Shown here: piece by piece, positions 30,299 through 52,860 of the stretch
How the letters are laid out: every line of letters starts with the position of its first letter
Position numbering within the stretch: position 1 is the stretch's first letter
DNA from: Peribacillus frigoritolerans
GTDB taxonomy: Bacteria > Bacillota > Bacilli > Bacillales > DSM-1321
Assembly (NCBI RefSeq): GCF_001636405.1
Contig: NZ_KV440950.1
Coordinates: 2,813,712 to 2,877,711, forward strand
Reading direction: 5' to 3'
DNA length: 64,000 nucleotides
The notes under the pieces: generated by a model
The model's database searches: none
Told to the model about the DNA's origin: nothing
The model's input: only the letters and a program-made list of their open reading frames with translations
Program-made: the position numbers and the translations under genes

Positions 30299-31327
30299 TT
30301 GAAAAAAAATAAGCTATTTGTATTTTCCACAAGCTTAACTCTTGCAATGACATTCCTTTTATCAGGATGTGGTGGAGGTGAGGGAGAAAAAACCAGTGGA
30401 TCTGGAGTTGAAAAGAAAACGATAAAAGTGGCACATTATTTTGCTGAAAATCATCCTCAAAACATTGCTTTGAAAGAAAAGTTTAAAAAATTGGTTGAAA
30501 AGGAGAGTAATGGTGAACTAGAGGTTCGGATTTATGCGAACAGTACATTAGGTGCAGAAAAAGAATTTTATGACGGCGTCAGAAACGGAACGATCGAAAT
30601 GGGTGTTCCAGGGCTAATCATGCAGTCGGACATTCCTAAAATGGGTGTTCCGGAATGGCCCTTCCTATTCAGGGATTACGATCATGTAAAGAAGGTATTG
30701 AATGGACCTATCGGAGAGGAATTGACAGAAGATCTGGATCCAAAGCATGGGGTGACACCGCTCGCATGGAGTGCTAACGGATTTAGGATGTTTTCGAGTA
30801 ATCGTCCAATTAAGAGTATGAAAGATTTTGATGGACTTCGACTTAGAATGCCGAACATCCCGAATTACATAAAATTAGGTGAATCATTGGGGGCAAACGT
30901 TAGCCCATTGCCTATTTCAGAAGTTTTTACCGCACTTGAACAAAAAGTTGTTGATGCTCAAGATAATCCCATAGCCACACTGAGATCCTCGGGGTGGAAT
31001 GAAGTACAAAGTGATGTACTAGAATCCAAGCATATGTTCAGCCCCAATATTTACATTATCAATAGCAAATTCTATAAAGGGCTAACAAAAGAGCAACAAA
31101 AAATCATTCAAAAAGCAGCAAAGGAGTCGGCAGCATATGAGTTTGATTTGATGGAAAAAAGTTATGAAGATGACAAAGCTTATCTTAAGGATAATGGAAT
31201 CAAATTCACAAAGCCTGACGAAGACTTTTCACAAAAAATGTTAAAAGCATCTCAACCTGTTTATGATGAAGTCTTTGAGAAAAATGACTGGGCGAAGGAG
31301 CTTGCCGGGAAAATACAAGCAGAATGA
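30299..31327 (+). CDS. TRAP transporter substrate-binding lipoprotein 1 (DctP family)
   Basis: TTG 30299 follows GGGGAGGG by six bases and starts a lipoprotein signal (KNKLFVFSTSLTLAMTFLLS, then GCGGG). The 342-aa protein has DctP-family features: IKVAHYFAENHPQNIALKEK, GVPEWPFLFRDYDHV, SANGFRMFSSNRPIKSMKDF, and LRLRMPNIPNYIKLGESLGA with the carboxylate-binding Arg. The last part reads PISEVFTALEQKVVDAQDNP. It captures an organic or sugar acid at the membrane and hands it to the DctQ-DctM permease encoded next. A second binding protein follows the permease, so the system may take two kinds of acid. Confidence 0.93.
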   Translation: MKKNKLFVFSTSLTLAMTFLLSGCGGGEGEKTSGSGVEKKTIKVAHYFAENHPQNIALKEKFKKLVEKESNGELEVRIYANSTLGAEKEFYDGVRNGTIEMGVPGLIMQSDIPKMGVPEWPFLFRDYDHVKKVLNGPIGEELTEDLDPKHGVTPLAWSANGFRMFSSNRPIKSMKDFDGLRLRMPNIPNYIKLGESLGANVSPLPISEVFTALEQKVVDAQDNPIATLRSSGWNEVQSDVLESKHMFSPNIYIINSKFYKGLTKEQQKIIQKAAKESAAYEFDLMEKSYEDDKAYLKDNGIKFTKPDEDFSQKMLKASQPVYDEVFEKNDWAKELAGKIQAE

Positions 31328-31363
31328 AGCAGGCGCTCTAGATAGGAAGGGGGAGATGTATAG

Positions 31364-31936
31364 GTGAATAAAATATCAAGAATCTTGGAAAATTCGTTAA
31401 ACATTATTATGGCAATTGCTTTAGCAATAATGGTCGTACTCGTGTTTGGTAATGTAGTCCTCCGTTATTTCTTTAATTCAGGTATTACTTGGTCAGAAGA
31501 AATGTCAAGGTATCTCTTTATTTGGTTGACGTTCCTTGGCGCCATCGGAGCTTTTAAAAACAAAGAACACTTAGGTGTCGACATGGTCATCAAAAGGCTC
31601 CCGAATAAGATGAAAAAAGTGGTGCTAGTTATTAGTGATTTGATGATGTTATTCGTTCTTATCCTGATCTTGGATGGCAGCTGGAAAATGACATTGATAA
31701 ACATTGACAGTACTGCACCGGCCACTGGCATGCCACTGGCATTTGTATATGGGACAGGTATTCTTGTGAGTGTGTCAATGGGCAGCATGATCATCTTCAA
31801 TTTGTATCGGATTTTCTTCAATAAAATTAAAGACGAAGAATTGGTGATGATAAGTGAGTCAGAAGAGCTGATTTCTCTCCATACTGATGAATTTGCTTCA
31901 GATATTAGAATTGTCAAGGAGGAGAAACAGGGATGA
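31364..31936 (+). CDS. TRAP transporter small permease (DctQ)
   Basis: GTG 31364 follows GGAAGGGGGAG. The 190-aa protein has four membrane helices (about 12-32, 45-65, 85-105, 125-148) and the DctQ signature VLRYFFNSGITWSEEMSRYLFIWLT split by the first loop, plus GAFKNKEHLGVDMV. It pairs with DctM, whose gene overlaps the last four bases (ATGA). The tail after residue 150 is charged and cytoplasmic. Confidence 0.93.
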   Translation: MNKISRILENSLNIIMAIALAIMVVLVFGNVVLRYFFNSGITWSEEMSRYLFIWLTFLGAIGAFKNKEHLGVDMVIKRLPNKMKKVVLVISDLMMLFVLILILDGSWKMTLINIDSTAPATGMPLAFVYGTGILVSVSMGSMIIFNLYRIFFNKIKDEELVMISESEELISLHTDEFASDIRIVKEEKQG

Positions 31937-33210
31937 TAGGTGTATTTGTCGGATCTTTACTGGGAGCCATGGGACTAGGAATACCTATTGCCTTTGCCTT
32001 ACTTGTGAGTAGTGTAGTGCTTATGTACTTTCTTGGTATTTTTGATAGTCAAATAATCGCACAAAATTTAATCAGTGGCGCTGATAACTTCCCTCTAATG
32101 GCCATACCGTTCTTTATGCTGGCAGGAGAGGCGATGAATAGGGGCGGATTATCACGGCGTATCGTTGAGATGGCAATGAACCTGGTCGGTCATATCAAGG
32201 GAGGCCTTGGCTATGTTGCGATCATTGCGAGTGTGTTGTTTGCAAGTTTATCAGGATCTGCAGTTGCAGATACAGCAGCGCTTGGGGCTATATTAATTCC
32301 AATGATGGTGAAGTCAGGGTATGATGTGAACCGGTCAAGTGGGCTGATTGCATCCGGTGGTATCATTGCCCCGATCATTCCGCCAAGTATTGGCTTTATC
32401 ATTTTCGGTGTCGCAAGTGGAGTGTCCATTACAAAGCTGTTTATGGCAGGAATCGTTCCTGGTATATTACTAGCGGTTGGACTAACGGTTACCTGGGCCA
32501 TTGTTGCACGAAAAGATAAAGTCGCCGTTAACCCTCGAGCTTCAACAAAAGAAATTCTTACTTCTCTTCGTCAAGGCGTTTGGGCTCTATTCCTGCCCGT
32601 CATCATCATTGGTGGATTGAAATTCGGTTTATTTACACCGACTGAAGCGGCAGTAGTTGCTGCAGTCTATGCAATATTTGTCGGTCTTGTAATCTATCGT
32701 GAAATGAAAGTGAAAGATTTGTATGAGGTCTTTGTACATGCAGGAAAAATGACGAGCGTTGTCATGTTTCTGGTCGCTGCAGCTCTAGTATCATCCTGGC
32801 TGATAACTGTAGCGGATTTACCTGGTCAGGTGATTGGATTGCTGGAGCCATTTATGGATCATCCATTCCTTCTATTAATAATGATAAACTTATTGGTCAT
32901 CGTAGTTGGAACTGCTATGGATATGACGCCGACAATCCTTATTCTAACACCTGTATTGATGCCATTGGTGGTCGCTGCAGGTATTGATCCAGTTTACTTT
33001 GGTGTCCTGTTTATCCTGAATAACGCCATCGGATTACTTACACCACCTGTTGGAACCGTGTTAAATGTCATGTGCGGCATAAGTAAGATCAGTATGGAAG
33101 ATATCATGAAGGGGATTTGGCCTTTCTTGCTCGTGGAAGTAATTGTATTGATCTTGTTGATTTTGTTTCCTTCCCTAGTGCTGGTTCCTCTAGAATGGTT
33201 TACCTCCTAA
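31933..33210 (+). CDS. TRAP transporter large permease (DctM)
   Basis: ATG 31933 overlaps the DctQ stop. The 425-aa protein has about 12 hydrophobic segments and DctM motifs NFPLMAIPFFMLAGEAMNRG, ASLSGSAVADTAALGAILIP, SGGIIAPIIPPSIGFIIFGV and the C-terminal NNAIGLLTPPVGTVLNVMCG. It is the ion-coupled translocation subunit of the importer in the cytoplasmic membrane. Confidence 0.95.
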   Translation: MIGVFVGSLLGAMGLGIPIAFALLVSSVVLMYFLGIFDSQIIAQNLISGADNFPLMAIPFFMLAGEAMNRGGLSRRIVEMAMNLVGHIKGGLGYVAIIASVLFASLSGSAVADTAALGAILIPMMVKSGYDVNRSSGLIASGGIIAPIIPPSIGFIIFGVASGVSITKLFMAGIVPGILLAVGLTVTWAIVARKDKVAVNPRASTKEILTSLRQGVWALFLPVIIIGGLKFGLFTPTEAAVVAAVYAIFVGLVIYREMKVKDLYEVFVHAGKMTSVVMFLVAAALVSSWLITVADLPGQVIGLLEPFMDHPFLLLIMINLLVIVVGTAMDMTPTILILTPVLMPLVVAAGIDPVYFGVLFILNNAIGLLTPPVGTVLNVMCGISKISMEDIMKGIWPFLLVEVIVLILLILFPSLVLVPLEWFTS

Positions 33211-33276
33211 CGGAATTAAACAAGTATTTGGGTGTGTATGCTGGTATTCATCTTATTTTATAGGAGGAAAATGAAA

Positions 33277-34317
33277 ATGAATAATTTGTTCAAACGTCTG
33301 GCGGTTGGAGTTTTACTGCCTTCATTACTACTATTAAGCGCTTGTGGAAGCGGACAAAATGAGAGCGCTTCAGCTGACGGAATACAGGAAAGAACAATCA
33401 AAGCAGGGATCGGAAATAGTAAAATGCATCCACAAGGAAAAGGAATGGAGAAATTTAAAGAACTGGTTGAAGAAAAAAGCGGGGGGAAAATGAAAGTCCA
33501 AAACTTTTTTGATGCCACTCTCGGAGATGATCAGAAAATGACAGAAGCTCTTCAAGGCGGCTTACAGGAAGTAACTGTTCCTTCAACCTCACCACTTGTT
33601 GGTATGATTAAGGAATTTGGAATTTATGACTTCCCATTTGTTTTTAATAATGAAGAAGAAGCTTATACAGTACTTGATGGTGCAGTAGGAAAAAAACTTT
33701 TGGATAAATTACCGGAACATGATTTAGTAGGTTTGGGATACTGGGAAAATGGTTTCCGGAGCTTAACCAACAGTAAAAAACCTGTTAAAACGGCTGAAGA
33801 TTTCAAAGGGCTTAAACTTCGTACCATGCAAAATGAAGTGCATTTAGATGCATTTTCAAAGTTAGGGGCGAATCCATCACCGATGGCTTTCTCAGAAGTG
33901 TTTACTGCACTGGAAACAGGCACTGTTGATGGTCAGGAGAATCCACTCGCAACAATTCAAACGCAAAAATATAATGAAGTGCAAGAATACTTAAGTCTTA
34001 CAAATCATGTTTATACACCATTTGTATTCCTTGTAAGTAAAAAGTTCTGGGATGACCTATCAGAACAAGAACAAGAAATCATGAGTGAGGCCGCACAAGA
34101 GGCTGGAAAGTATCAACGGGAAGTTAACCAAAAAGAAAACGAAAAGGCACTTAAGTATCTAAAAGAAGAAGGAATGAAAATCAATGAAGTAGAACCTGAA
34201 GAAATGGAAAAAATGAAGAAGGCCATCCAACCAGTGACGGACGAATATGCCAAGAAATTCGGACCAGATCTTGTAGAGGAAATGATGAGCGAAGTTGAAA
34301 AAGTACGCGGTAAATAA
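33277..34317 (+). CDS. TRAP transporter substrate-binding lipoprotein 2 (DctP family)
   Basis: AGGAGG is followed by ATG at three and nine bases; the second (33277) has the better spacing. The 346-aa protein has a lipobox (LLLLSACGSG) and DctP motifs KFKELVEEKSGGKM, DFPFVFNNEEEA, GYWENGFRSLTNSKKPVKT and LRTMQNEVHLDAFSKLGANP, with the carboxylate-binding Arg in LKLRTM and the closing AFSEVFTALETGTVDGQENP. It is clearly related to, but well diverged from, binding protein 1. It lies directly before the LarA homologue. Confidence 0.92.
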   Translation: MNNLFKRLAVGVLLPSLLLLSACGSGQNESASADGIQERTIKAGIGNSKMHPQGKGMEKFKELVEEKSGGKMKVQNFFDATLGDDQKMTEALQGGLQEVTVPSTSPLVGMIKEFGIYDFPFVFNNEEEAYTVLDGAVGKKLLDKLPEHDLVGLGYWENGFRSLTNSKKPVKTAEDFKGLKLRTMQNEVHLDAFSKLGANPSPMAFSEVFTALETGTVDGQENPLATIQTQKYNEVQEYLSLTNHVYTPFVFLVSKKFWDDLSEQEQEIMSEAAQEAGKYQREVNQKENEKALKYLKEEGMKINEVEPEEMEKMKKAIQPVTDEYAKKFGPDLVEEMMSEVEKVRGK

Positions 34318-34341
34318 TCCAGATTGTTTGGAGGAAAGAAA

Positions 34342-35592
34342 ATGGATATTATCTCTGAACTTTTACGTGAAATCCAATTACCGAAAATGGTACAAGTGAG
34401 GCAAAAATTTCCTGCACCTCAAATCGCTGATGTAGCTGGTGAGGTGAAGAAGGCGATAAAAGAAGCAGGTGTCTTATCAAGAATAAATGAAGAAGACAGG
34501 GTGGCAATTGCAGTAGGAAGCAGAGGGATAGCGGACCTTCCTACATTAGTAAGAGAAACGGTGGCTGCCGTTAAGGCGGCGGGAGGTAATCCTTTCATCG
34601 TACCTGCAATGGGAAGCCATGGTGGTGCCACGGCGGAAGGGCAAATCGATGTGTTGCTTCAGCTGGGTATTTCAGAAGAAGCGGTTGGAGCGCCTATCAG
34701 GTCATCGATGGAAGTTATTAAACTGGATGAATTGCCAAATGGCCTCCCTGTCTATATTGATAAATTTGCTTACGAATCGGATAAAATCATAGTCATTAAT
34801 CGGATAAAACCACATACAGCATTTCGCGGACCGGTTGAAAGCGGACTTATGAAAATGATAACTATCGGTTTAGGAAAGCAAAAGGGAGCCGAAGCTGCAC
34901 ATGCATACAGCTTTAAGTATATGGCGGAACATGTACCTGAGATGGCGAAGGTTTCCTTGTCAAAAGCTTCTATCATATTTGGTCTTGCGTCGATTGAAAA
35001 CGCTTATGATGAACCGGCGAAAATCGTCGCAGTCCCAGCGGAGGATCTGGAGGTAGTGGAACCGGGACTGTTGCTTGAAGCAAAATCATTGATGCCGAAA
35101 ATACATTTCGATTCGATGGACGTACTTATTGTAAATGAACTCGGAAAGGACATTTCAGGGGATGGAATGGACCCGAACATTACGGGTAACTTCGCCACAC
35201 CATATGCTACCGGGGGGCCAGACGTTAAACGGACCGTTGTATTAGGACTTACTGAAAAAACTCACGGTAATGCGAACGGCATCGGCATGGCAGATATGAC
35301 GACAAAAGCCGTCATGAATGAAATAAAATGGGAAAAAGGGTATGCAAATGCACTCACCAGCACAGTGACAGATGTAGTAAAGCTCCCGATGTTTTTGGAT
35401 ACTCAGGAATTGGCTGTAAAAGCTGCCATCAAAACGTGCAATGCCTTCGATTTGAATAAAGTGAGAATCGTAAGAATTAAAAACACGCTTGAAATCGGTG
35501 AAATTTGGATTTCTGAAAACATGATGGAAGAAGCTTTAAAAAATGAAAATATAGAGATCTTGTCAGACCCAGAAGACTTGGCACTGGACTAA
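34342..35592 (+). CDS. LarA-family nickel-pincer racemase/epimerase homologue
   Basis: ATG 34342 follows GGAGG by six bases. The 416-aa protein belongs to the DUF2088/LarA-like superfamily. Its N-terminal domain has VAIAVGSRGIADLPTLVRE and VPAMGSHGGATAEGQ, with a His in the place of the LarA active-site loop. NRIKPHTAFRGPVESGLMKM followed by ITIGLGKQKGAEAAH supplies a second His, candidate Lys residues for cofactor attachment and a third His. LarA enzymes invert the carbon bearing the hydroxyl of 2-hydroxy acids; homologues act on malate and on gluconate/mannonate. The cofactor-building genes larE, larB, larC1 and larC2 lie in the same cluster. With sugar-acid dehydratases all around, C2 epimerisation of an aldonate is the best guess. 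Substrate unproven. Confidence 0.88.
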   Translation: MDIISELLREIQLPKMVQVRQKFPAPQIADVAGEVKKAIKEAGVLSRINEEDRVAIAVGSRGIADLPTLVRETVAAVKAAGGNPFIVPAMGSHGGATAEGQIDVLLQLGISEEAVGAPIRSSMEVIKLDELPNGLPVYIDKFAYESDKIIVINRIKPHTAFRGPVESGLMKMITIGLGKQKGAEAAHAYSFKYMAEHVPEMAKVSLSKASIIFGLASIENAYDEPAKIVAVPAEDLEVVEPGLLLEAKSLMPKIHFDSMDVLIVNELGKDISGDGMDPNITGNFATPYATGGPDVKRTVVLGLTEKTHGNANGIGMADMTTKAVMNEIKWEKGYANALTSTVTDVVKLPMFLDTQELAVKAAIKTCNAFDLNKVRIVRIKNTLEIGEIWISENMMEEALKNENIEILSDPEDLALD

Positions 35593-35655
35593 AATCTTCT
35601 TTACTATTTTCATAGAACGAAAGAATTGATTTGAACTCAGAAAAGGAGTGCTGAA

Positions 35656-37860
35656 ATGACACACCTATATCCACTAATTGATAACGAAATAAACCCTTAC
35701 CGCGATAATGTGCAGGGAAAAGCAAATGAACCCATTACGGTTGCAGGGCTGTTGGACCGTTCGAAGCTGACGCTAGGCACCACATATGAAGGGGGGAAGC
35801 CTGATTGGACGCTTGAAGAAATTTATATGCGGCTCGAGAGGAATGCCCCGCGTATCGCAATAATAGGTGGTTCTTCCGATCATCCGGCCCATATAATGGA
35901 TTACCAAACGTCAGCACGGGCAGCAATCCGCATTTGGCAAAACGGCGGCGTGCCGTTTCATTTTTCGACACCGGTGATGTGTGATGGCACTGCACAAAAC
36001 AATCAAGGAATGAGTTACTCTCTCCAGAGCCGAAACGCGGTTGCACAAATGGTTGTCAACCAGCTGGAAGCTCACAGTTATCATGGTGCATTCGTCATTC
36101 AAGGGTGTGATAAGCAGCCTCTTGGTGTTGTAAGTGCACTCGCCCATGTTGATCGTGTTCGCCGAAACCGTGGTGAAGCACCCTTTTTCGCAACATTCGC
36201 ACCTGCTCACGTTTTGGAAGGCGGTTCGATTCCAGCTGACGTGATTGAGGAATTGGAAACTCTTGCGAAAAATGCGGAAAGCAAAGGAGCAGCCGATGTA
36301 GCCGTAGATTTACGAGATACGATGGCATATATATTGCAATGCTCATCGAATACTGCTTTCCAGGGCGTGTTTGAACGGGCCTATGAACGAGGAATATTGA
36401 CGAAGGAACAGCATAAATACTTTGAAATGAGACTTGCTGTCGCAACATGTGACGGGCAGGGAGGTGTATGTGCCTTTAATGGTACGGGGAATAGTTCACG
36501 TCATTTAGTGGCAGGCATGGGTCTCGTACATCCAGCAGTGGAGCTGTTGACCGATCCGCCAACACAACGGCAGATTAACTCGGTGCTTGATAGCTTTGCC
36601 GGCATGATAAACGAAGAGCGCTACGGCGTGGCCAACATTGTCGGTGCGAACATAAAAAATGCAATCCGTATTCACAGTGCTTCGGGTGGTTCTACTAACT
36701 TAATGATGCATATTGTCGCAGGCATGCTTTATGCAGGATTCAAATTCAGTTTATGGGATCTTGATCGCATTCATCATTCACATCCAATTCCTGACTTATT
36801 TGATTACAGTTTGACAGAAGGAAGGGACATTTATTCTCTTGCGATGCAGTGTTGCAGCGGGAAAAGCAGAGGAATGGAAACACTTTTTCATGAACTTATT
36901 GAGAATGGTGTAGCAATGGATCAGGATGCGCCGACTGTCGCAGCAAAAACTTGGAAAGAACGTCTTTCGATCACAAGTAGCCTAAAAGCGGTTAATGTAA
37001 AGAAAAATCAGGTCATTTTATCCAATCCACGACGTGGATTCAGCGGTGTTGATGTATTAAAAGGAAACTTCTTTGAAAGCGCCGTTGTAAAAATCAGCGG
37101 AATGCCGACACCACAGCTTGACCAATTCGACGATAAACTTGCATTTGTCCTTTATTACGAAAATGAAGATGATGCAAATAAAAGCCTGCTCGATTCAAAA
37201 CTGCTTTCAAAAATAAAAGAGCAAAAGCTTTTCGAACATAATCTATTGCTAGAATCTCTTAAATACAACAATGAGTCGGAATGGTCTCTTTTAAAAACCG
37301 CTACCTATGGGGAATTATTTGACAGGATGGTTGAAGCCGGCACATTGAAAATTGCGGTTATTATCTCAGGGCAGGGGCCAGTGGCATTCGGAATGCCGGA
37401 AATGTTTACACCAATGCAACACATCAATGCAAATCGTGTTATGAAAAAAATCGCTACAATCATTAGCGACGGCCGCTATTCAGGAGTCACATATGGAGCT
37501 GCCATAGGGCATATGACACCGGAAGCGTATGAAGGTGGCAGCATAGGTTTACTTAAATCAGGGGATGTAATTCACCTTCAGCTTCGTGATCGACGAATTG
37601 ATTTTGTAGATTCTACTCAACTTCATTCTGGAAAGGTTATTCATGATTTTGCGGATCATTTTAAAGAAGAAAGACAATCATTGGCAGCTGAACGCAAGCA
37701 GCGGATGAAAGTTAGACAGAAAATGGTTGCGGCAAGCAACAGGATGTTTGGGCATACAGATGCAGCAAATGGTGTTGTTCCAATCGCTGTCATTGAGGAT
37801 GCGGTACTTGATTATGAACAAGATATTATAATCCATGAAAAAAAAGTAGAAATAAAGTGA
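35656..37860 (+). CDS. IlvD/Edd-family sugar-acid dehydratase (YjhG/YagF type)
   Basis: ATG 35656 follows AAAAGGAGTG. The 734-aa protein is longer than IlvD (about 560) and closest in layout to the YjhG/YagF xylonate dehydratases. Cluster-binding and active-site motifs are present: FSTPVMCDGTAQNNQGMSYS, VIQGCDKQPLGVV, ATCDGQGGVCAFNGTGNSS, IRIHSASGGSTNLMMH and ATIISDGRYSGVTYGAAIGH. It should remove water from a pentonate or hexonate to give a 2-keto-3-deoxy acid. An acidic segment near residues 500-550 is the main extra region. The IclR gene follows after 61 bp. Confidence 0.92.
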   Translation: MTHLYPLIDNEINPYRDNVQGKANEPITVAGLLDRSKLTLGTTYEGGKPDWTLEEIYMRLERNAPRIAIIGGSSDHPAHIMDYQTSARAAIRIWQNGGVPFHFSTPVMCDGTAQNNQGMSYSLQSRNAVAQMVVNQLEAHSYHGAFVIQGCDKQPLGVVSALAHVDRVRRNRGEAPFFATFAPAHVLEGGSIPADVIEELETLAKNAESKGAADVAVDLRDTMAYILQCSSNTAFQGVFERAYERGILTKEQHKYFEMRLAVATCDGQGGVCAFNGTGNSSRHLVAGMGLVHPAVELLTDPPTQRQINSVLDSFAGMINEERYGVANIVGANIKNAIRIHSASGGSTNLMMHIVAGMLYAGFKFSLWDLDRIHHSHPIPDLFDYSLTEGRDIYSLAMQCCSGKSRGMETLFHELIENGVAMDQDAPTVAAKTWKERLSITSSLKAVNVKKNQVILSNPRRGFSGVDVLKGNFFESAVVKISGMPTPQLDQFDDKLAFVLYYENEDDANKSLLDSKLLSKIKEQKLFEHNLLLESLKYNNESEWSLLKTATYGELFDRMVEAGTLKIAVIISGQGPVAFGMPEMFTPMQHINANRVMKKIATIISDGRYSGVTYGAAIGHMTPEAYEGGSIGLLKSGDVIHLQLRDRRIDFVDSTQLHSGKVIHDFADHFKEERQSLAAERKQRMKVRQKMVAASNRMFGHTDAANGVVPIAVIEDAVLDYEQDIIIHEKKVEIK

Positions 37861-41081: not shown

Positions 41082-41103
41082 AACGAAAAAGGAGCAAAAG
41101 ACT

Positions 41104-42573: not shown

Positions 42574-42637
42574 CAAGTGCAAGGGAGGTTTCCATGTTTG
42601 AAAGTCTCTTTCTTCAAAAAACATTGTGAGGTGCTTG

Positions 42638-43786: not shown

Positions 43787-43803
43787 TAAAAGGAGGAAAA
43801 ACA

Positions 43804-45693: not shown

Positions 45694-46653
45694 ATGACCT
45701 TTAAAATATTATTAACGGATTACGAATTTGAACATTTGAAATATGAAGAAGAGATTTTTCAAGAAAGCGGTCTGGATATCAATTTCATCCAAGCGCAATG
45801 CAAAACTGAAGAGGAAATAATGGAGCAGGCAAAAGAAGCGGATGCAATTTTAAATCAATATGCTCCTATCTCAAGACGAGTCATCGAGTCGCTCGAAAAC
45901 ACGAAAATCATTTCCCGCTATGGTGTTGGCGTCAATACAATTGATCTCGATGCCGCTAAGGAAAAGGGGATTACTGTCGCCAATGTACCGGATTATGGCA
46001 TGGAAGAAGTATCGAATCATGCATTGGCACTTTTACTTTCTTCGGCGCGGAAAGTGGCACTGTTAAACAAGGAAGTGAAAAAAGGTAACTGGGACTTTAA
46101 AGTGTGTGTCCCGATTCATCGCTTTGACAAGCAAACTGTTGGGGTTCTTGGTTTTGGACGGATTCCGCGCCGTTTCATTGAAAAGGTGAAACCGCTCGGC
46201 TTTAAAACCGCTGCTTATGACCCTTTCGTATCGGCTGCAGACATGGCTGCTGTCGGGGTTCAAAAAATGGATCTCGACGAAATTATAGGCGAAGCCGATT
46301 ATTTGTCAATCCATGTGCCCTTAATTGAAGATACATACCATCTGATCAATGAAGAGCGCCTTAAACAGATGAAGAGTAACGCGGTCATCATTAACACGGC
46401 ACGCGGACCGATAATCGATGAAAAAGCACTTTCCAATGCACTTGAAAAAGGGATCATTGCAGGTGCTGCACTTGATGTGACAGAAAACGAGCCTGTCAGC
46501 ATCGATAGCCCGCTACTCACAATGGACAATGTCATCATTACGCCGCACAGCGCCTGGTATTCTGAGGAAGCGATGGTTGAACTTCGTCAAAAAGCATCAA
46601 GAAATATCGTTCAGGTCTTAAAAGGGGAAAAAACACCATACGCTTTAACCTAA
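45694..46653 (+). CDS. D-2-hydroxyacid dehydrogenase (CtBP/GyaR type)
   Basis: ATG 45694 follows AAAGGAGTGG. The 319-aa protein shows IISRYGVGVNTIDLDAAKEK, the NAD loop VGVLGFGRIPRRFIEK and the catalytic set Arg in NTARGPIIDEKAL, Glu in DVTENEPVS and His in ITPHSAWYS. It reduces 2-keto acids such as glyoxylate, hydroxypyruvate or a keto-deoxy acid with NAD(P)H, or runs in reverse. In this operon it may deal with glyoxylate/glycolate from aldol cleavage or interconvert keto and hydroxy acids. Confidence 0.9.
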   Translation: MTFKILLTDYEFEHLKYEEEIFQESGLDINFIQAQCKTEEEIMEQAKEADAILNQYAPISRRVIESLENTKIISRYGVGVNTIDLDAAKEKGITVANVPDYGMEEVSNHALALLLSSARKVALLNKEVKKGNWDFKVCVPIHRFDKQTVGVLGFGRIPRRFIEKVKPLGFKTAAYDPFVSAADMAAVGVQKMDLDEIIGEADYLSIHVPLIEDTYHLINEERLKQMKSNAVIINTARGPIIDEKALSNALEKGIIAGAALDVTENEPVSIDSPLLTMDNVIITPHSAWYSEEAMVELRQKASRNIVQVLKGEKTPYALT

Positions 46654-46667: not shown

Positions 46668-47531
46668 ATGAAAATAGCGACTTTTTCCGTGCAATCCGAA
46701 CAGCACATCGGTCTAGTTCAAGATGATCAAATAATTAGTTTAACGGCTCTAGGTCCAGAGGAATTTCCTGCTTGCATGAAAAAATTTATAGAACGAGGAA
46801 GCGAGTTGCGCACACGTGCTGAACACTTAATCGAGCAACGGATAAATGAGGATGCAATATTCAAAACGTCAGAAGTGAAAATCCTGCCGCCAATCGCAAA
46901 GCCGGATAAAATCATTTGCGTAGGACTTAACTATTTTGATCATTGTAAGGAAACGGGGATGGAGCCGCCTGAATCGCCAGTCATTTTTTCAAAATATTCG
47001 AATGCGATTACAGGTCATAATGATCCGATTGAAATCCCAATTAATTCAACAGAGGTCGACTTTGAAGCAGAGCTTGCTTTTGTCATTGGAAAAGAAGCGA
47101 AACGTGTGTCAGAAGAAGAGGCGGATGACTACGTCTTTGGCTACACGATTATGAATGATATCAGCGCCCGAGATTTGCAATTTCAGGACGGTCAGTGGTC
47201 AAGAGGCAAAACGGCGGACACATTTGCTCCATTTGGTCCTGTTATCGTGACAAAAGATGAAGTGGGTGACCCCCACAATCTAGCGATTTCGCTTGAATTA
47301 AACGGTGAAATTATGCAGGATTCAAATACAAGCAACCTAATTTTTACGGTTCCGAAAATCATTTCATTTTTATCACAGTCCATGACACTAATGCCAGGTG
47401 ATTTGATTGCAACTGGCACGCCACCAGGAGTTGGAATGGGAAGGAATCCAAAAATCTGGTTGAAAAACGGTGACCGGATGAACGTCAGCATTGAGAAGAT
47501 CGGTACGCTTTCTAATCACGTAATAGCATGA
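46668..47531 (+). CDS. FAH-family hydrolase/isomerase, second copy
   Basis: ATG 46668 follows GAAAGGGGA. The 287-aa protein has the usual FAH core: KIICVGLNYFDHCKETGMEP, FSKYSNAITGHNDPIEIP, metal ligands in EVDFEAELAFVIGKEAKR, GYTIMNDISARDLQF, and LIATGTPPGVGMGRNP near the end. It is closer to the acylpyruvase/2-hydroxyhepta-2,4-diene-dioate isomerase branch than the copy at 38721. Relatives cleave acylpyruvates or 2,4-diketo-3-deoxy sugar acids, so it could act in a diketo branch of the pathway. Confidence 0.88.
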   Translation: MKIATFSVQSEQHIGLVQDDQIISLTALGPEEFPACMKKFIERGSELRTRAEHLIEQRINEDAIFKTSEVKILPPIAKPDKIICVGLNYFDHCKETGMEPPESPVIFSKYSNAITGHNDPIEIPINSTEVDFEAELAFVIGKEAKRVSEEEADDYVFGYTIMNDISARDLQFQDGQWSRGKTADTFAPFGPVIVTKDEVGDPHNLAISLELNGEIMQDSNTSNLIFTVPKIISFLSQSMTLMPGDLIATGTPPGVGMGRNPKIWLKNGDRMNVSIEKIGTLSNHVIA

Positions 47532-47552: not shown

Positions 47553-48509
47553 ATGGATGTTGTAACCATCGAAGAAACGATGACAGTGTTTACCCCGAAT
47601 GAAGAAGGACCGCTTCGCCACGCCAGATCTTTTTCGATGAAGTTTGCCGGTGCGGAATCCAATGTCGCGATCGGGTTAAGCCGACTCGGTCATAACTCAC
47701 GCTGGATTAGCCGTCTCGGTGATGACGAATTTGGCGATGCCATGCAATCGTTCATTCGCGGAGAAGGAGTCGATGCCTCTTATGTAACAAGAGACCCTGA
47801 TGCGCCTACCGGAGTCTTTTTTAAAGAATTCAGACGGCTGAATGATACCCGGGTTTATTATTACCGGAAAGATTCGGCAGCTAGTAAAATGACGGCGGAA
47901 TTACTAACTGATCTTGCCATCCAAGATGCCGCTTATCTCCATATAACGGGGATTACCCCTGCACTAGGGACTTCTTGTCAGTCGCTCTTGGATAAAGCGG
48001 TCCGCATTGCTAAAGAAAACAGAACAAAAATCGTCTTCGATCCGAATATTCGTTTGAAAATATGGGATGATGAAAATGAAGCACGTCACATCATAACAAA
48101 GTACGCCTCGAAAAGTGATATCGTCATGCCTGGGGTGGCCGAAGCCGAATTTTTATTCGGCTCCCATACACCGGAGAAATTTGCCGATCATTTTCATGAA
48201 CTCGGTGTCGAAACAGTTTTACTTAAATTGGGCAAAGAAGGCTCTTTAATTTCAGCCCCGTCTGTACCGAAAACATACATTCCTGGATTCTATGTGGAAC
48301 GGGTCGTGGATCCCATCGGTGCTGGTGATGCTTTTGCATCCGGTGTACTTTCCGGACTGCTTGATGGACTGCCGCTAGAAGAAGCTGCAAGGCGTGGAAA
48401 TGCCATGGGAGCAATGGCAACGATGGTAAATGGAGATGTGGAGGGTTTGCCGGCCCGTGCCGACCTCGCTTTGTTCATGAGTGGCGGCGCTGATGATGTG
48501 AAGAGGTAG
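47553..48509 (+). CDS. kdgK: 2-keto-3-deoxygluconate kinase (PfkB family), copy 1
   Basis: ATG 47553 is the only start compatible with the domain; the ribosome site is weak. The 318-aa PfkB kinase has KFAGAESNVAIGLSRLG, WISRLGDDEFGDAM, FDPNIRLKIWDDENEA, and the anion-hole/catalytic motif VVDPIGAGDAFASGVLSGLL. It should phosphorylate 2-keto-3-deoxygluconate or -galactonate on O6. Its first strand reads DVVTIEETM where this family normally has DVVT(F/L)GETM, so a conserved Gly near the substrate is replaced by Glu. The aldolase gene follows after 13 bp. Confidence 0.9.
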   Translation: MDVVTIEETMTVFTPNEEGPLRHARSFSMKFAGAESNVAIGLSRLGHNSRWISRLGDDEFGDAMQSFIRGEGVDASYVTRDPDAPTGVFFKEFRRLNDTRVYYYRKDSAASKMTAELLTDLAIQDAAYLHITGITPALGTSCQSLLDKAVRIAKENRTKIVFDPNIRLKIWDDENEARHIITKYASKSDIVMPGVAEAEFLFGSHTPEKFADHFHELGVETVLLKLGKEGSLISAPSVPKTYIPGFYVERVVDPIGAGDAFASGVLSGLLDGLPLEEAARRGNAMGAMATMVNGDVEGLPARADLALFMSGGADDVKR

Positions 48510-48522
48510 AAAGGTGGAAAAA

Positions 48523-49191
48523 ATGACTAAACTTGAAGAGCTTAAACATGGGAAGCTGGTCGGCGTCATCCGCGGTGCACGGCCCAATCAAATTATACCA
48601 ATCGCCCGGGCCCTGAAAGAGGGCGGCATCCGAACGCTAGAAATAACAGTGGAAACACCCAAAGTGTGCCATTTAATCGAAAAAGTGAAAGAGGAGTTCG
48701 GTGATGATATCATAGCGGGTGCCGGTACAGTATTGGATCCTGAAACGGCCCGTGCGGTCATCATGGCAGGGGCTGAATTTATCTTTTCTCCAACCGTCAA
48801 TGTCAAAACGATTAAACTGGCGAAGCGCAATGGCGTTATTAGCATCCCTGGTGCGCTCACACCAACCGAAATATTGACTGCTTACGAGCATGGAGCTGAC
48901 ATTATCAAAGTTTTCCCGGCAGATGCATTGGGTGTTAGCTACTTTAAAAATCTTAAAGGACCTCTTCCTCATATTCCCCTTATGCCAACTGGAGGGGTCA
49001 ACCTTGACAACCTCGCGTCATTTTTTAAGGCAGGGGCCATCGCGGCGGGAGTAGGCGGTTCATTGATCAATCCTGCGAAATTGATTACAGGTGAAGATTA
49101 CACCAGGCTGACAGAAACGGCAAAAAAAATTCTCGGCTATCGTACAAAAAGGCTAAAGCCGTCCATCGCTTATATGAATATCTTTCACTAA
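48523..49191 (+). CDS. eda: KDPG aldolase, copy 1
   Basis: The frame opens at GTG 48514, but AAAGGTGG there is the ribosome site for ATG 48523; the product is 222 aa. It has the KDPG/KHG aldolase motifs LVGVIRGARPNQIIPIARAL, LEITVETPKV (catalytic Glu), AGAGTVLDPETARAVIMAGA, the Schiff-base Lys in DIIKVFPADALGVSYFKNLK, and MPTGGVNLDNLASFFKAGA. It splits 2-keto-3-deoxy-6-phospho-gluconate/galactonate into pyruvate and glyceraldehyde 3-phosphate. A 125-bp gap separates it from larE. Confidence 0.93.
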   Translation: MTKLEELKHGKLVGVIRGARPNQIIPIARALKEGGIRTLEITVETPKVCHLIEKVKEEFGDDIIAGAGTVLDPETARAVIMAGAEFIFSPTVNVKTIKLAKRNGVISIPGALTPTEILTAYEHGADIIKVFPADALGVSYFKNLKGPLPHIPLMPTGGVNLDNLASFFKAGAIAAGVGGSLINPAKLITGEDYTRLTETAKKILGYRTKRLKPSIAYMNIFH

Positions 49192-49316: not shown

Positions 49317-50132
49317 ATGTTACTAGAAAAGTACAGAACTTTGCAGGATATTCTTCAAAAAATGGAGTCGGTTGTGGTTGCATTTTCAGGAGGGGTGGAC
49401 AGCACGTTTTTGCTAAAAGTCGCTATTGATACTCTGGGTTATGATAATGTGTTAGCCGTTACAGCGGATTCGGAAACCTATCCATCGAGTGAGTTGAAAG
49501 AAGCCATTATGCTATCAAAATGGATTGGTGCCAACCATCGTGTCATTCAAACTTCGGAGTTGGCCATTCCTGGATATAAAGAAAACAATCAGAATCGCTG
49601 TTACTTTTGTAAAAGTAGTTTATTTGACCACCTGCTTCCTATTCTTGAAGAATATGAATTTAATAATATTATTTATGGAGTTATCGCTGATGATGCTAAC
49701 GAATTTCGTCCAGGCATGAAAGCAGCTAAAGAAAAAGGAATCAGCGGACCTTTTCTAGAAGCCGATTTATTCAAAGAAGAAATAAGAGTATTGTCCAAGC
49801 AAGCCGGATTGCCAACCTGGGATAAACCGTCATTTGCTTGCCTATCCTCACGAATAGCATATGGCGATATTATTACGAGGGAAAAATTGACCAAAGTTGA
49901 TAAATCAGAGGCTTACATAAAATCACTGGATATTCATCAGGTAAGAGTCAGGACCCATGAGGATACTGCCCGAATTGAAGTTGAACCCGATGATATGCCA
50001 CGAGTGCTTCAATACCATGCGGCGATCACGAAACGGCTGAAGCAATTTGGTTATAAGTATGTATCAATGGATCTCACGGGCTATACAAGCGGAAGTATGA
50101 ATATGGCGCTTAAAAAGGAAGAAATGTCATGA
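49317..50132 (+). CDS. larE: LarE, sulfur transferase for nickel-pincer cofactor
   Basis: ATG 49317 follows GAAAGGGGAAAAATGAT. The 271-aa protein has the PP-loop VVVAFSGGVDSTFLLKVA and RCYFCKSSLFDHLLP. It also has FACLSSRIAYG, which holds the cysteine at the position that donates its sulfur in Lactiplantibacillus LarE. LarE adenylates the dinicotinate mononucleotide intermediate and installs the two sulfurs that will bind nickel. It overlaps larB by four bases (ATGA), starting the cofactor block of the operon. Confidence 0.95.
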   Translation: MLLEKYRTLQDILQKMESVVVAFSGGVDSTFLLKVAIDTLGYDNVLAVTADSETYPSSELKEAIMLSKWIGANHRVIQTSELAIPGYKENNQNRCYFCKSSLFDHLLPILEEYEFNNIIYGVIADDANEFRPGMKAAKEKGISGPFLEADLFKEEIRVLSKQAGLPTWDKPSFACLSSRIAYGDIITREKLTKVDKSEAYIKSLDIHQVRVRTHEDTARIEVEPDDMPRVLQYHAAITKRLKQFGYKYVSMDLTGYTSGSMNMALKKEEMS

Positions 50133-50866
50133 TTGACGATATTTTGGAGCAGGTTCAAAAGGGTTCATTGACAGTTGCGGAAGCGAAGGGAAAACTTGCA
50201 TCCTATGAAAATTTAGGGTTTGTGAAAATCGATCATCATCGTAAAAGGAGACAAGGCTTTCCCGAAATTGTGTTTGGGGAAGGGAAAACAGCTGAACAAA
50301 TTTTAACGATTGTCCAATCGCTGCGGACAAGGAATGATACTGTGCTTGTGACTCGTATTTCTCGGGATAAAGCGGTATTTGTACAAAAAGAATGTAGTGA
50401 TTTTGAGTATAACGAGATTGCACGGACACTTGCTTGGGTTAGAGAAAAGCCGAAATCCGTTGATTCATATATTGCAATTGTATGCGCCGGGACATCAGAT
50501 TTGTCTGTTGCTGAAGAAGCAGCCGTGACGGCCGAAACTCTAGGTATTCCTGTCAGGCGTATATACGATGTTGGCGTTGCTGGGCTTCATCGCCTCCTTG
50601 ATAATATAGACGAAATAAGGGGTGCAACCGTATCAGTTTGTGTCGCGGGAATGGAAGGGGCACTTCCAAGTGTGTTAGGAGGCCTTGTCACGAATCCAAT
50701 TATTGCTGTGCCGACAAGTATTGGTTACGGAGCTAATTTTAACGGTTTATCGGCCCTTTTATCAATGCTCAATTCATGCGCATCTGGTGTAAGTGTAGTG
50801 AACATCGATAATGGATTTGGTGCAGCCTATAATGCAGCGATTATATACAAGCTTGTACATAAATAG
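50129..50866 (+). CDS. larB: LarB, carboxylase/hydrolase of nickel-pincer cofactor synthesis
   Basis: ATG 50129 overlaps the larE stop. The 245-aa protein resembles PurE in its C-terminal half, as LarB does: AIVCAGTSDLSVAEEAAVTA, RIYDVGVAGLHRLL, SVCVAGMEGALPSVLGGLV and VPTSIGYGANFNGLSALLSM. LarB carboxylates nicotinic acid adenine dinucleotide and hydrolyses it. larC1 follows after 13 bp with its own AGGAGG. Confidence 0.95.
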   Translation: MIDDILEQVQKGSLTVAEAKGKLASYENLGFVKIDHHRKRRQGFPEIVFGEGKTAEQILTIVQSLRTRNDTVLVTRISRDKAVFVQKECSDFEYNEIARTLAWVREKPKSVDSYIAIVCAGTSDLSVAEEAAVTAETLGIPVRRIYDVGVAGLHRLLDNIDEIRGATVSVCVAGMEGALPSVLGGLVTNPIIAVPTSIGYGANFNGLSALLSMLNSCASGVSVVNIDNGFGAAYNAAIIYKLVHK

Positions 50867-50879
50867 GAGGTCAATTGTG

Positions 50880-51752
50880 ATGAGGACTTTATATTTTGAC
50901 TGCTTTTCCGGCATAAGCGGAGATATGGTAATTGGTGCGTTGATCGATGCAGGTGCAGACCCTGTAAAAATGGAAGAAGAGTTAAAAAAGTTGAACATGG
51001 ATGAAGAATATAATCTGTCATGGGGGAAGGTCGTCAAAAATGGCATTACGAGTACTAAATTTGATGTCATTCTTACCAGTAAATCAGACCAAACACATGA
51101 ACATAGCCACAGCCATGAACACAAGCACAGTCATAGCCATGAACACGAGCACAGTCATGGACACAGTCACAGTCATGAACACGAGCACAGTCTTGGACAT
51201 GAACACAACCATAGCCATGTACCTCACAGCCATCCCGGCAGCCGTACCTACAAACAAATTGTAGAAGCTATCAATGAGGCGAACTTTAATGAATCGGTAG
51301 CTAACATGTCACTCGCCATTTTTAAGAAGATTGGTGAAGCGGAAGGACATATACACGGGCTTCCACTGGAAAAAGTACACTTTCATGAAGTAGGGGCGGT
51401 AGATTCAATAATAGATATAATCGGGGCTGCAATTTTAATCGATCAGCTAGGTATTGAATCAGTTCAGTCATCAGCCATTCCAACGGGATCTGGACATATA
51501 CAAATTGATCACGGAATATATCCTGTTCCTGCACCTGCCACTCTTGAAATATTAAAGGGGGTACCGATTGCCTCAAACGATATTCGTTCTGAATTAGCAA
51601 CGCCGACCGGTGCTGCCATCGCTGCGGTTTTAGCTGGAAACTTCGGCTCGCTTCCACCCATGACTGTCGAATCGATTGGCTATGGTGCGGGATCAAAAAC
51701 TTTTGAAAATCATCCGAACGTCCTTCGAGTTATCATAGGGGAGACTCAATGA
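50880..51752 (+). CDS. larC1: LarC1, nickel insertion protein (N-terminal part)
   Basis: AGGAGG precedes GTG 50877 and ATG 50880; the latter is used here (290 aa). It begins with the LarC signature TLYFDCFSGISGDMVIGALI, has a His-rich stretch at residues about 73-118 (22 His), then EKVHFHEVGAVDSIIDIIGA, SAIPTGSGHIQ and ATPTGAAIAAVLAG. LarC loads nickel into the pincer nucleotide using CTP. The frame ends at TGA 51750-51752, overlapping larC2 in the -1 frame. In Lactiplantibacillus the two parts are joined by programmed frameshifting; here a separate ATG also exists. Confidence 0.93.
   Translation: MRTLYFDCFSGISGDMVIGALIDAGADPVKMEEELKKLNMDEEYNLSWGKVVKNGITSTKFDVILTSKSDQTHEHSHSHEHKHSHSHEHEHSHGHSHSHEHEHSLGHEHNHSHVPHSHPGSRTYKQIVEAINEANFNESVANMSLAIFKKIGEAEGHIHGLPLEKVHFHEVGAVDSIIDIIGAAILIDQLGIESVQSSAIPTGSGHIQIDHGIYPVPAPATLEILKGVPIASNDIRSELATPTGAAIAAVLAGNFGSLPPMTVESIGYGAGSKTFENHPNVLRVIIGETQ
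51096..51233 (+). repeat. His-codon-rich tandem repeat inside larC1
   Basis: About 46 codons encode mainly His alternating with Ser, Glu or Gly (for example HSHSHEHEHSHGHSHSHE). At DNA level short units such as CATGAACACGAGCACAGTC recur, so the length may vary between strains. A nickel-storage or delivery role is usual for such stretches. Confidence 0.85.
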
Positions 51753-52225
51753 ACCGCCCGCCTGATCATGAGCATCTTGATGAACAAATGGTGAAAATGG
51801 AAGTGAATCTAGATGATATTTCCGGTGAATGGCTTGGGCATGTTATGGATTTGTTGTTCGAATCAGGAGCAAATGATGTATTTTATACGCCAATCTATAT
51901 GAAAAAAAATCGACCGGGAGTGTTATTGCAGCTTCTATGTTCACAGCAGGGGATTTCGGAAATGAAGAAGATATTATTTGCTGAAACGACGACTCTCGGT
52001 ATTCGCTACTACCCGCTTACCGTGCACAGGCTTGAGCGCTCTTTTTTCAATGTGAATACTCAATGGGGGGAAGTGAAGATGAAGAGAGGGATTCATGAGG
52101 GATTGATCTTGCAGCAGGCACCTGAATATGAAGATTGCCGTAAAATTGCCTTACAGAACAATATACCTCTTAAAAGGGTCTATGAAGAAGTATGGAAGTG
52201 CCTCGGGGAGGTGGTAGAGAAATGA
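51749..52225 (+). CDS. larC2: LarC2, nickel insertion protein (C-terminal part)
   Basis: ATG 51749 overlaps the larC1 stop (ATGA). The 158-aa product carries the LarC C-terminal half: KMEVNLDDISGEWLGHVMDL, ANDVFYTPIYMKKNRPGVLL and ETTTLGIRYY. It contributes the catalytic part that binds CTP and the pincer nucleotide. The first 20 residues are a Pro/Asp/His-rich linker. It overlaps the permease gene by four bases (ATGA). Confidence 0.93.
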   Translation: MNRPPDHEHLDEQMVKMEVNLDDISGEWLGHVMDLLFESGANDVFYTPIYMKKNRPGVLLQLLCSQQGISEMKKILFAETTTLGIRYYPLTVHRLERSFFNVNTQWGEVKMKRGIHEGLILQQAPEYEDCRKIALQNNIPLKRVYEEVWKCLGEVVEK

Positions 52226-52860
52226 GTTTGGTGTCGATTCTTACATTTGGATTCCTATTGGGGATAAAGCATTCGTTAGAGCCGGATCATGTTATTGCCG
52301 TAGCAACGACGGCAGGAAATACGAAAAAATTATACCGTTCCACTCTAACGGGAGTGTACTGGGGTATAGGCCATACAAGTACGCTGTTTCTTATAGGTGT
52401 CCTATTCATTTGGATGAAGGGGGAAATTCCAGAGTCGTTAAGCATGACGCTGGAATTCGGCGTAGGTATTATGCTTGTTATGCTAGGGGCGAGAAGTTTA
52501 TTTAAAGCGCGCCCTGATATTACGAACGACAAGGATAGATTTCGCCCTTTTTTGGTGTCTGCTTTAATTGGGTTCGTCCATGGTCTCGCGGGCAGTGCCG
52601 CAATGGTCATTCTAACGATGTCGACCGTAACCGGAATAGGCGAAGGATCCATCTATATCATTATATTTGGCGCAGGGACAATTATTGGCATGCTGTGCTT
52701 TACTACTATTCTAGGCATACCGTTTGCTTTGAATGGGAAGGACATCGTTTTAAACCGAATCTTCATCAAAATGGCGGGAGCTATAAGTTTTGCATTCGGA
52801 CTTTATTATATATACAAATTGGGTGTAACAGAAGGCTTGTTTGCGCTCTGGGCTAGTTGA
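52222..52860 (+). CDS. Nickel-type permease (UreH/NiCoT-like)
   Basis: ATG 52222 overlaps the larC2 stop. The 212-aa protein has six hydrophobic helices. Its first helix carries IKHSLEPDHVIAVATT, fitting the H-x4-D-H metal motif of NiCoT-type carriers, followed by GVYWGIGHTSTLFLIGV and later GFVHGLAGSAAMVIL. Encoded last after the cofactor genes, it most likely supplies Ni2+ for the pincer cofactor. The usual NiCoT signature LGFDTATE is absent, as in UreH-type proteins. Confidence 0.85.
   Translation: MSLVSILTFGFLLGIKHSLEPDHVIAVATTAGNTKKLYRSTLTGVYWGIGHTSTLFLIGVLFIWMKGEIPESLSMTLEFGVGIMLVMLGARSLFKARPDITNDKDRFRPFLVSALIGFVHGLAGSAAMVILTMSTVTGIGEGSIYIIIFGAGTIIGMLCFTTILGIPFALNGKDIVLNRIFIKMAGAISFAFGLYYIYKLGVTEGLFALWAS

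Follow-up and report, generated by a model that had tools for sequence, protein, structure and literature searches.

A group-22 LarA homologue in a sugar-acid operon of Peribacillus frigoritolerans as a candidate nickel-pincer C2 epimerase

The lactate racemase LarA of L. plantarum, which depends on the nickel-pincer nucleotide (NPN), is accompanied by the cofactor genes larB, larC and larE, and larC is split in two in that organism. A LarA homologue with its own larE, larB and a likewise divided larC (larC1 and larC2) is encoded in the stretch of DNA considered here, 64,000 nucleotides of Peribacillus frigoritolerans (contig NZ_KV440950.1, positions 2,813,712 to 2,877,711, forward strand), which we call the window. 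The homologue shares with L. plantarum LarA the five residues that bind NPN or take part in catalysis, but it lacks the equivalent of D72, sits in a sugar-acid rather than a lactate operon and is only distantly related to the solved structures of the LarA family. Several further systems resemble it in part, and are described here from the portions of the cited papers that were available. The GntE D-gluconate 2-epimerases (groups 19 and 20; PMC7583248) are also NPN-dependent, with the LarA fold, a catalytic histidine pair, the cofactor lysine and a sugar-acid context, but they belong to a different group and carry at position 175 a glutamate that is threonine in the group-22 protein discussed below. 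LarA Bw and LarA Sp (PMC12611868) have the LarA fold and a suggested link to carbohydrate metabolism; unlike group 22, which retains both histidines, they have asparagine in place of H174.

For the neighbouring pathway genes, the closest parallel is the D-arabinose pathway of Herbaspirillum and Paraburkholderia (PMC6336799), in which a D-arabinonate dehydratase of the UxaA/GarD family and a dehydratase acting on 2-keto-3-deoxy-D-pentonate (D-KDP) lead to alpha-ketoglutarate. The available text of that paper mentions no LarA or NPN genes; it infers a heteromeric UxaA-family dehydratase for L-fuconate and does not describe the D-arabinonate enzyme as split. The D-xylonate operons yagEFG and yjhIHG of E. 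coli (PMC13279387) share with the locus a YagE-like aldolase, IclR-type regulators (XynR and YjhI) and a D-xylonate-type IlvD/Edd dehydratase, the last of which is found at a second locus in P. frigoritolerans, whereas the part of the paper that was available makes no mention of an epimerase.

We propose that the operon in the window takes in and degrades sugar acids, and that the LarA homologue, loaded with NPN, inverts C2 of an aldonate so that it fits the dehydratases encoded beside it, a reading that on balance we think is probably right. The protein matches NCBIfam NF052515, "nickel pincer cofactor-dependent isomerase, group 22" (555.1 bits, cut-off 400), whose number we assume from its name to be group 22 of the 2020 classification, and it is the sole Lar_N protein found in the 5.46-Mb genome. 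An AlphaFold2 model built from 34 sequences (pLDDT 89) gave 18 Foldseek matches at E<=0.001, all of them LarA-family structures, at 12-17% identity and TM scores of 0.48-0.57 by query length; a sequence search of the PDB gave 2yjg as the best LarA match at only E 0.57. Profile and multiple alignment place R61, H93, H158, K171 and H187 on LarA R75, H108, H174, K184 and H200, and both the cofactor-binding residues (R61, K171, H187) and the catalytic pair (H93, H158) are identical in all 115 distinct group-22 relatives, a set used unfiltered alongside 28 comparison LarAs picked from 30 loci by a motif filter. These five residues and the LarA fold indicate that the homologue should therefore bind NPN and use two-histidine hydride transfer, with a pocket unlike that of the gluconate epimerases. 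That it is an NPN enzyme seems to us very probable, and that it acts as a C2 epimerase of polyhydroxy acids is likely. Histidine at the H174 equivalent in 115 of 115 relatives rules out the single-histidine LarA subfamily. The protein is a further variant within a known kind of enzyme, with a testable list of substrates. Group 22 has no assigned function, and the operon of the window is not described, in the open-licence PMC literature searched (main articles); the term "group 22" is absent from the main texts of PMC7583248, PMC11770544, PMC12611868 and PMC11796402.

The distribution of the cofactor genes points the same way. Of the 398 genomes sampled from the window's class, 57 carry a group-22 gene over cut-off, as does the Haloferax volcanii control; LarB exceeds its own cut-off in 102 of the 398, comprising 55 of the 57 with a group-22 gene versus 47 of the 341 without, an association whose Fisher p of 2e-36 is overstated because the species are related. 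The four NPN biosynthesis genes larE, larB, larC1 and larC2 are all in the window, and larB lies 15.9 kb downstream of larA there and 15.9-16.0 kb downstream in four of eight named relatives checked (L093, L095, L096, L097). In L092 the distance is 14.6 kb if larB is on the same contig, and in draft genomes contig identity was assumed from the coordinates throughout. Among 22 more distant genomes, 17 have larB more than 20 kb from the dehydratase gene that follows larA in the window (IlvDx, below) or on another contig. The cofactor supply dedicated to the operon that an earlier note on this DNA had proposed from the sequence is therefore present in the window as a local arrangement, and does not extend to most of the distant genomes.

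The genes concerned form a compact block on the plus strand between 30.3 and 52.9 kb, from the TRAP transporter genes through larC2 to a NicO-like permease gene. The features are as follows.

30006..30035, plus strand: promoter-like site, sigma-A-type consensus TTGACA-18-TATAAT, 12/12 matches (a pattern match only)
30065..30081, plus strand: operator-like palindrome, copy 1, one mismatch to GTTTTATAWTATAAAAC
30190..30206, plus strand: operator-like palindrome, copy 2, exact; kept upstream of the operon in relatives
30299..31327, plus strand: TRAP solute-binding protein 1 (DctP1); longest open reading frame from 30149, lipoprotein start nearer 30299; 35% identical to DctP2
31364..31936, plus strand: TRAP small permease DctQ
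31933..33210, plus strand: TRAP large permease DctM
33232..34317, plus strand: TRAP solute-binding protein 2 (DctP2)
34324..35592, plus strand: LarA homologue, NPN isomerase group 22; probable start ATG 34342
35656..37860, plus strand: IlvD/Edd-family dehydratase of a divergent 734-aa subgroup, named IlvDx here
37922..38689, plus strand: IclR-family regulator
38721..39608, plus strand: FAH1, FAH-family, KdaD-like 2-keto-3-deoxy-D-pentonate dehydratase (2q18, 232.6 bits, E 5.2e-68)
39620..39919, plus strand: SAF-domain small subunit of a UxaA/GarD-type dehydratase
39900..41081, plus strand: UxaA/GarD-type dehydratase, large subunit
41044..42573, plus strand: alpha-ketoglutaric semialdehyde dehydrogenase, KGSADH (NF042993, an equivalog, 852 bits, cut-off 770)
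42626..43786, plus strand: DgoD, D-galactonate dehydratase of the enolase superfamily (NF010624, 666 bits, cut-off 311)
43780..44715, plus strand: DHDPS-family aldolase, YagE-like (2v8z, 236 bits)
44712..45659, plus strand: U32-like TIM-barrel protein, conserved in the cluster
45694..46653, plus strand: D-isomer-specific 2-hydroxyacid dehydrogenase
46668..47531, plus strand: second FAH-family protein
47553..48509, plus strand: PfkB-family kinase, 2-keto-3-deoxy-aldonate kinase-like
48514..49191, plus strand: KDPG/KHG aldolase
49317..50132, plus strand: larE (TIGR00268, 353 bits, cut-off 150)
50129..50866, plus strand: larB (NF033503, 307 bits, cut-off 175), the sole LarB over cut-off in the genome
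50811..51752, plus strand: larC1 (TIGR00299, over cut-off); likely start near 50880
51749..52225, plus strand: larC2 (NF052512, over cut-off)
52192..52860, plus strand: NicO-like permease with an HSLEPDH motif (24.2 bits, below the Pfam cut-off of 27.7)

All the genes that the earlier note had named were found on this strand and in the order it gave, and the ATGA overlaps it described are real at larE/larB and larC1/larC2. The nickel-type permease at the 3' end is present as a NicO-like gene with its motif, at a match below the Pfam threshold. To these are added the IclR, FAH1, SAF-subunit, KGSADH, U32-like, 2-hydroxyacid dehydrogenase and second FAH genes and the palindrome, which the note did not contain. 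The same block is found again in tens of Bacillota loci, so that its gene order, for which the note had suggested a neighbourhood search, is not a product of chance. None of the gaps between operon genes contains a plus-strand terminator-like site; promoter-like sites as a class are not enriched in the window (17 found, 24.2 expected from shuffles), and an Rfam scan of the window at gathering thresholds gave no matches. A programmed frameshift at larC1/larC2 was rejected, as inspection by eye found no slippery heptamer at the ATGA overlap. The U32-like protein has no NCBIfam match, and fold and sequence searches return a generic TIM barrel, with TM below 0.6 among the 50 matches listed. The two TRAP binding proteins share one DctQ/DctM pair, and two ligands are possible, for example two epimers. 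Downstream, positions 54511-62651 of the plus strand hold a PfkB kinase, an Ldh_2 reductase, a zinc alcohol dehydrogenase, a KDPG aldolase, a UxuA mannonate dehydratase, an SDR protein, a LacI regulator and an MFS transporter, in what looks like a separate mannonate-type operon. Upstream, on the minus strand, a HAMP protein (28520-29689) overlaps an open reading frame with an MCP signalling domain (27961-28566), possibly a frameshifted chemoreceptor.

The setting of the LarA homologue was compared across its relatives, which were gathered as 60 regions from group-22 genome matches and 65 named loci found by peptides of the window protein, leaving 115 after L152 and nine identical proteins had been dropped. 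The nearest relatives found belong to Peribacillus, Neobacillus and related Bacillus species, while tblastn relatives of 54% identity or less lie on plasmids of Alphaproteobacteria, Actinomycetota, Negativicutes and haloarchaea; 69 of the 115 are at least 60% identical to the window protein and 46 fall below that. Because the named loci lean to close relatives and loci are not independent, the counts that follow describe co-occurrence and not natural frequencies, and since flanks of about 10 kb cut loci short, those for distal genes, among them the lar genes, are minimum values. Within these flanks the 69 close relatives have IlvDx in 61 cases, IclR in 60, DctM in 58, FAH1 in 55, the UxaA type in 45, aldehyde dehydrogenase in 42, DgoD in 41, the U32-like protein in 38, the 2-hydroxyacid dehydrogenase in 36, the kinase (KdgK) in 17 and LarB in at least 11, whereas the 46 distant relatives have IlvDx in 2, the UxaA type in 5 and LarB in at least 16. 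A quick maximum-likelihood tree of 116 proteins places 62 of the 64 IlvDx-linked LarAs in one 70-row clade (SH-aLRT 98), the other two (L044 and L068) being long branches. The emphasis of the earlier note on hexonates proved too narrow, as the pentonate arm, marked by FAH1, is better conserved than DgoD or KdgK. Among the distant plasmid relatives (14 regions examined, 13 annotated), UxaA-type dehydratase genes directly adjoin larA in three annotated regions, from Loktanella, Sporomusa and Pseudosulfitobacter, and an IlvD/Edd gene adjoins it in one more, from Roseicitreum.

The pathway core contains, by homology, the Weimberg gene set of IlvD/Edd and UxaA-type dehydratases, KdaD-like FAH1 and KGSADH. 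FAH1 matches the D-KDP dehydratase KdaD (2q18). In the available text of PMC9795676, all D-aldopentoses yield the same penultimate keto-deoxy acid, and in that of PMC6336799 a UxaA/GarD-family enzyme is a D-arabinonate dehydratase that gives D-KDP and is weak on D-altronate. In one sampled genome, G257, a glucuronoxylan cluster (UxaC, GH67, GH30, UxuA and GH43) also contains IlvDx, FAH1 and the aldehyde dehydrogenase, grouped as a minimal pentonate module; the genome shows no match to group-22 LarA, and neither LarB nor LarE exceeds its cut-off there. From the identities of FAH1 and KGSADH, these precedents and this module, the core is therefore read as putative Weimberg-type D-pentonate catabolism, to which a galactonate arm (DgoD, kinase and aldolase) and a Dahms-type exit (the YagE-like aldolase) appear to be joined.

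The stereochemistry of the dehydratases sets what an epimerase could contribute. IlvDx has dihydroxy-acid dehydratases as its best solved relatives and is too divergent for firm assignment; it scores 119 bits against the D-xylonate dehydratase family YjhG/YagF (TIGR03432, cut-off 808) and is not a member. A plain D-xylonate dehydratase is a less likely identity for it here, since the genome has a true YjhG-type enzyme elsewhere; that enzyme is absent from 30 of the 39 genomes with IlvDx, where a D-xylonate role is possible. According to the part of PMC9795676 available, strict specificity at both C2 and C3 is a property of the two IlvD/Edd pentonate dehydratases whose structures are known. By analogy with the specificities in these papers, the expected substrates are 2R,3S acids for the IlvD/Edd and DgoD enzymes and 2S,3R acids for the UxaA type, so that a C2 epimerase would bring in the 2S,3S acids (lyxonate, talonate) and the 2R,3R acids (ribonate).

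In the mechanism that we propose, sugar acids would be imported and then degraded by the operon enzymes, while LarB, LarE and LarC would make the nickel-pincer nucleotide that is loaded onto the group-22 LarA. The C2 hydroxyl of an imported aldonate would be oxidised to a 2-keto intermediate and the hydride returned on the other face, by proton-coupled hydride transfer. This inversion would turn 2S,3S acids into the 2R,3S form suited to the enzymes IlvDx and DgoD, 2R,3R acids into the 2S,3R form suited to the UxaA-type enzyme, or both. The D-pentonates would all give the same 2-keto-3-deoxy-D-pentonate, which FAH1 would dehydrate to alpha-ketoglutarate semialdehyde and KGSADH convert to alpha-ketoglutarate, with the YagE-like aldolase as a side exit; D-galactonate would pass through DgoD, the kinase and the KDPG-type aldolase. 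The IclR regulator, probably sensing a keto-deoxy acid, would act on the 17-bp palindrome. We infer the epimerase activity, its substrate and its direction from gene content and alignment. The earlier note had the LarA homologue inverting an imported aldonate at C2 to suit a dehydratase. This is consistent with the invariant NPN and catalytic residues, the fold, the co-occurrence with LarB and the dehydratase neighbours; with an NPN-type enzyme standing among aldonate dehydratases, it is therefore the most economical reading, and it keeps the standing of a prediction. A D-pentonate as the main substrate is a plausible but tentative choice, which we would put somewhat short of even.

The regulatory DNA adds a second line of evidence for pentonates. 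The palindrome, GTTTTATA[T/A]TATAAAAC, is conserved in many genera of Bacillota. It occurs twice upstream of the operon, at 30065 and 30190, where chance would give 0.08 matches with up to two mismatches in the whole window. With up to two mismatches, a site occurs in the 650 bp upstream of the first DctP1 in 34 of 42 named IlvDx loci versus 40 of 1164 control stretches from the same loci, some of the control matches being other palindrome sites of the same kind; five of the eight loci without a site (L103, L105, L107, L110 and L154) are clusters that start with another TRAP set. With at most one mismatch, 74 of 91 sites in the named loci stand no more than 700 bp before DctP1 (45), FAH1 (17) or DctP2 (12). 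Among 22 whole genomes drawn from the 39 with IlvDx, 46 such sites are found in 20 genomes, against four forward matches of a reversed control pattern, and 40 of the 46, from 19 genomes, have IlvDx no more than 16 kb away. Three of the remaining six, the distant sites, directly precede FAH1 or SAF-UxaA-aldehyde dehydrogenase genes (L217, L218 and L219), and the other three (L214, L215 and L216) have no clear pathway gene adjoining. Control of the lar genes elsewhere by the palindrome was rejected, as only two of the 46 sites are within 3 kb of larB, both of them in G023 between lar genes and a divergent operon.

The genome of the window has six sites with at most one mismatch, two at the operon and four (at 7851, 8265, 9104 and 16115) in a second locus, L213 (G000:C1:3719500-3739000); only these closer matches were used, as two mismatches give 13 sites in this genome versus 5 for the control. 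The second locus contains a D-xylonate dehydratase (TIGR03432, 1210 bits), a GntP permease and a nearby GH10 xylanase, together with paralogues of the operon's IclR (52%), FAH1 (62%) and aldehyde dehydrogenase (65%). Since the genome already has this D-xylonate operon, the operon in the window should serve other acids. The E. coli IclR-type regulators XynR and YjhI sense 2-keto-3-deoxy-D-xylonate, and PMC13279387 states that their binding consensus is uncharacterised. The simplest reading is that one operator may serve two pentonate operons, sensed through their shared intermediate. We infer from position and conservation that IclR binds the palindrome, a candidate operator, and from the E. 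coli precedent what its inducer may be.

Several observations weigh against this account of the enzyme. The equivalent of LarA D72, which contacts the cofactor ribose, is replaced by valine in 100 of the 115 relatives and by alanine in 15, although D72 is an ancillary, non-catalytic residue and its loss is not taken to exclude membership of the LarA superfamily. Y294 and Q295 also appear to be replaced, by T281 and G282 in the MAFFT alignment, which is weak in that region; hhalign aligned the N-terminal domain only, and so did not reach the equivalents of Q295 and K298 in the C-terminal domain. The pocket signature of NPN gluconate epimerases, E and V at positions 175 and 176 (PMC11770544, in the part available), is not that of group 22: T159, invariant in 34 sequences, stands at 175, and at 176 the alignments differ between A160 and a gap. 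The threonine rules out membership of GntE (groups 18-20). In two genomes, G020 and G055, the group-22 LarA is full-length and keeps the five key residues, and neither assembly has a LarB or LarE over cut-off. The link to IlvDx is likewise incomplete: eight of the 70 genes in the IlvDx-linked clade have no IlvDx nearby, and two IlvDx loci have only a distant group-22 LarA (L044 and L068; 48-50%). The IlvDx-less close relatives offer no consistent partner in L118, which has a zinc alcohol dehydrogenase and a tripartite tricarboxylate transporter, and L132 is not annotated. Further afield, a close relative (L140, 68%) lies among genes resembling an aldarate operon, and haloarchaeal relatives adjoin glycerate-kinase-like (DUF4147), lactate permease or LUD genes. 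Gene context fixes no single substrate for group 22, and substrates probably differ among its subclades.

These last observations lead to the alternatives. The one that survives best, which we nevertheless consider unlikely, is that LarA is an NPN-dependent C2 epimerase of hexonates or aldarates (talonate/galactonate or glucarate/mannarate, for example) and that the operon is mixed, with the pentonate genes as a branch of their own. Among the 69 close relatives, 41 have DgoD nearby, in many cases directly after larA, the Oceanobacillus profundus homologue (68%) is accompanied by GarD-type and enolase-type dehydratases, a DHDPS-family enzyme and KGSADH, and Paenibacillus cellulositrophicus has the order uxaC-larA-SDR-larE-larB-larC. 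The pentonate marker FAH1 is nevertheless found beside more of the close relatives than DgoD or KdgK, and the xylan cluster that contains IlvDx, FAH1 and KGSADH has no DgoD within the 19.5 kb read.

It is a good deal less probable that LarA racemises a small hydroxy acid such as glycerate or lactate at the edge of the pathway, as the genes adjoining the haloarchaeal relatives would suggest and as some LarAs of the lactate-racemase group do in preferring glycerate (PMC11770544, in the part available). The operon has no glycerate kinase, lactate dehydrogenase or lactate permease, however, and its conserved neighbours are aldonate dehydratases. Among the archaeal plasmid relatives, those of Haloarcula marismortui (L163) and Halomicrobium mukohataei (L167) adjoin DUF4147 genes, which suggests a glycerate-type substrate in archaea; haloarchaeal copies are also found near mandelate-racemase-type genes, and one has nothing telling nearby. 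Improbable to a further degree is an NPN enzyme with another hydride-type reaction, for example C3 epimerisation, or oxidation or reduction together with the 2-hydroxyacid dehydrogenase. A weak DUF362 match (26.9 bits, cut-off 24), the lost D72 equivalent and the presence of that dehydrogenase near 36 of the 69 relatives can be cited for it, but the catalytic histidine pair, the lysine and the histidine that binds nickel show no variation, a pattern shared with enzymes that invert C2.

Within the preferred reading of LarA as an aldonate C2 epimerase, the weight of this step can be gauged from genomes that lack it. The earlier note had suggested that the epimerase is essential for growth on its acid; we do not find this supported, as IlvDx or the operon persists without a group-22 LarA. 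IlvDx (E<=1e-150) is present in 39 of the 398 genomes, 31 of them with a group-22 gene over cut-off and eight without. Three of the eight (G122, G304 and G120) have internal stops in IlvDx itself, G071 and G120 retain fragments of a group-22 gene (accompanied in G071 by LarB and LarE), and G257, G048, G136 and G200 have an intact IlvDx and no LarB over cut-off. In G052 (L177) and G120 (L178) larA is broken in place inside the operon and the neighbouring operon genes remain; G052 also carries another, distant group-22 gene (L065), and G120 has no LarB or LarE over cut-off. An accessory that would widen the range of substrates fits better than an essential step. That larA is a passenger with no strong role in this genome is the least probable alternative of all, for although the operon is kept with a broken larA in G052 and G120, and G257 and G048 have IlvDx but neither a group-22 gene nor LarB or LarE above the cut-offs, the larA of the window is intact with its five key residues, is retained in close relatives at an unchanged distance from larB and is conserved across many genera.

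The most far-reaching form of the proposal is that group 22 contains the first nickel-pincer pentonate 2-epimerase, acting, beside one dehydratase for 2R,3S acids and another for 2S,3R acids, as a stereochemical hub that links lyxonate with xylonate and ribonate with arabinonate, so that all four D-pentonates converge on one 2-keto-3-deoxy-D-pentonate, the inducer shared with the D-xylonate operon; we regard this as possible but rather doubtful. For group 22 the cluster offers a short list of candidate substrates, three coupling dehydratases and a read-out through 2-keto-3-deoxy-pentonate and alpha-ketoglutaric semialdehyde, and its conserved palindrome is a candidate operator for a keto-deoxy-pentonate sensor. 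If the proposal is true, a nickel cofactor would open a wider set of sugar acids to soil bacilli, and the enzymatic synthesis of rare sugar acids would gain a new activity in a D-pentonate 2-epimerase.

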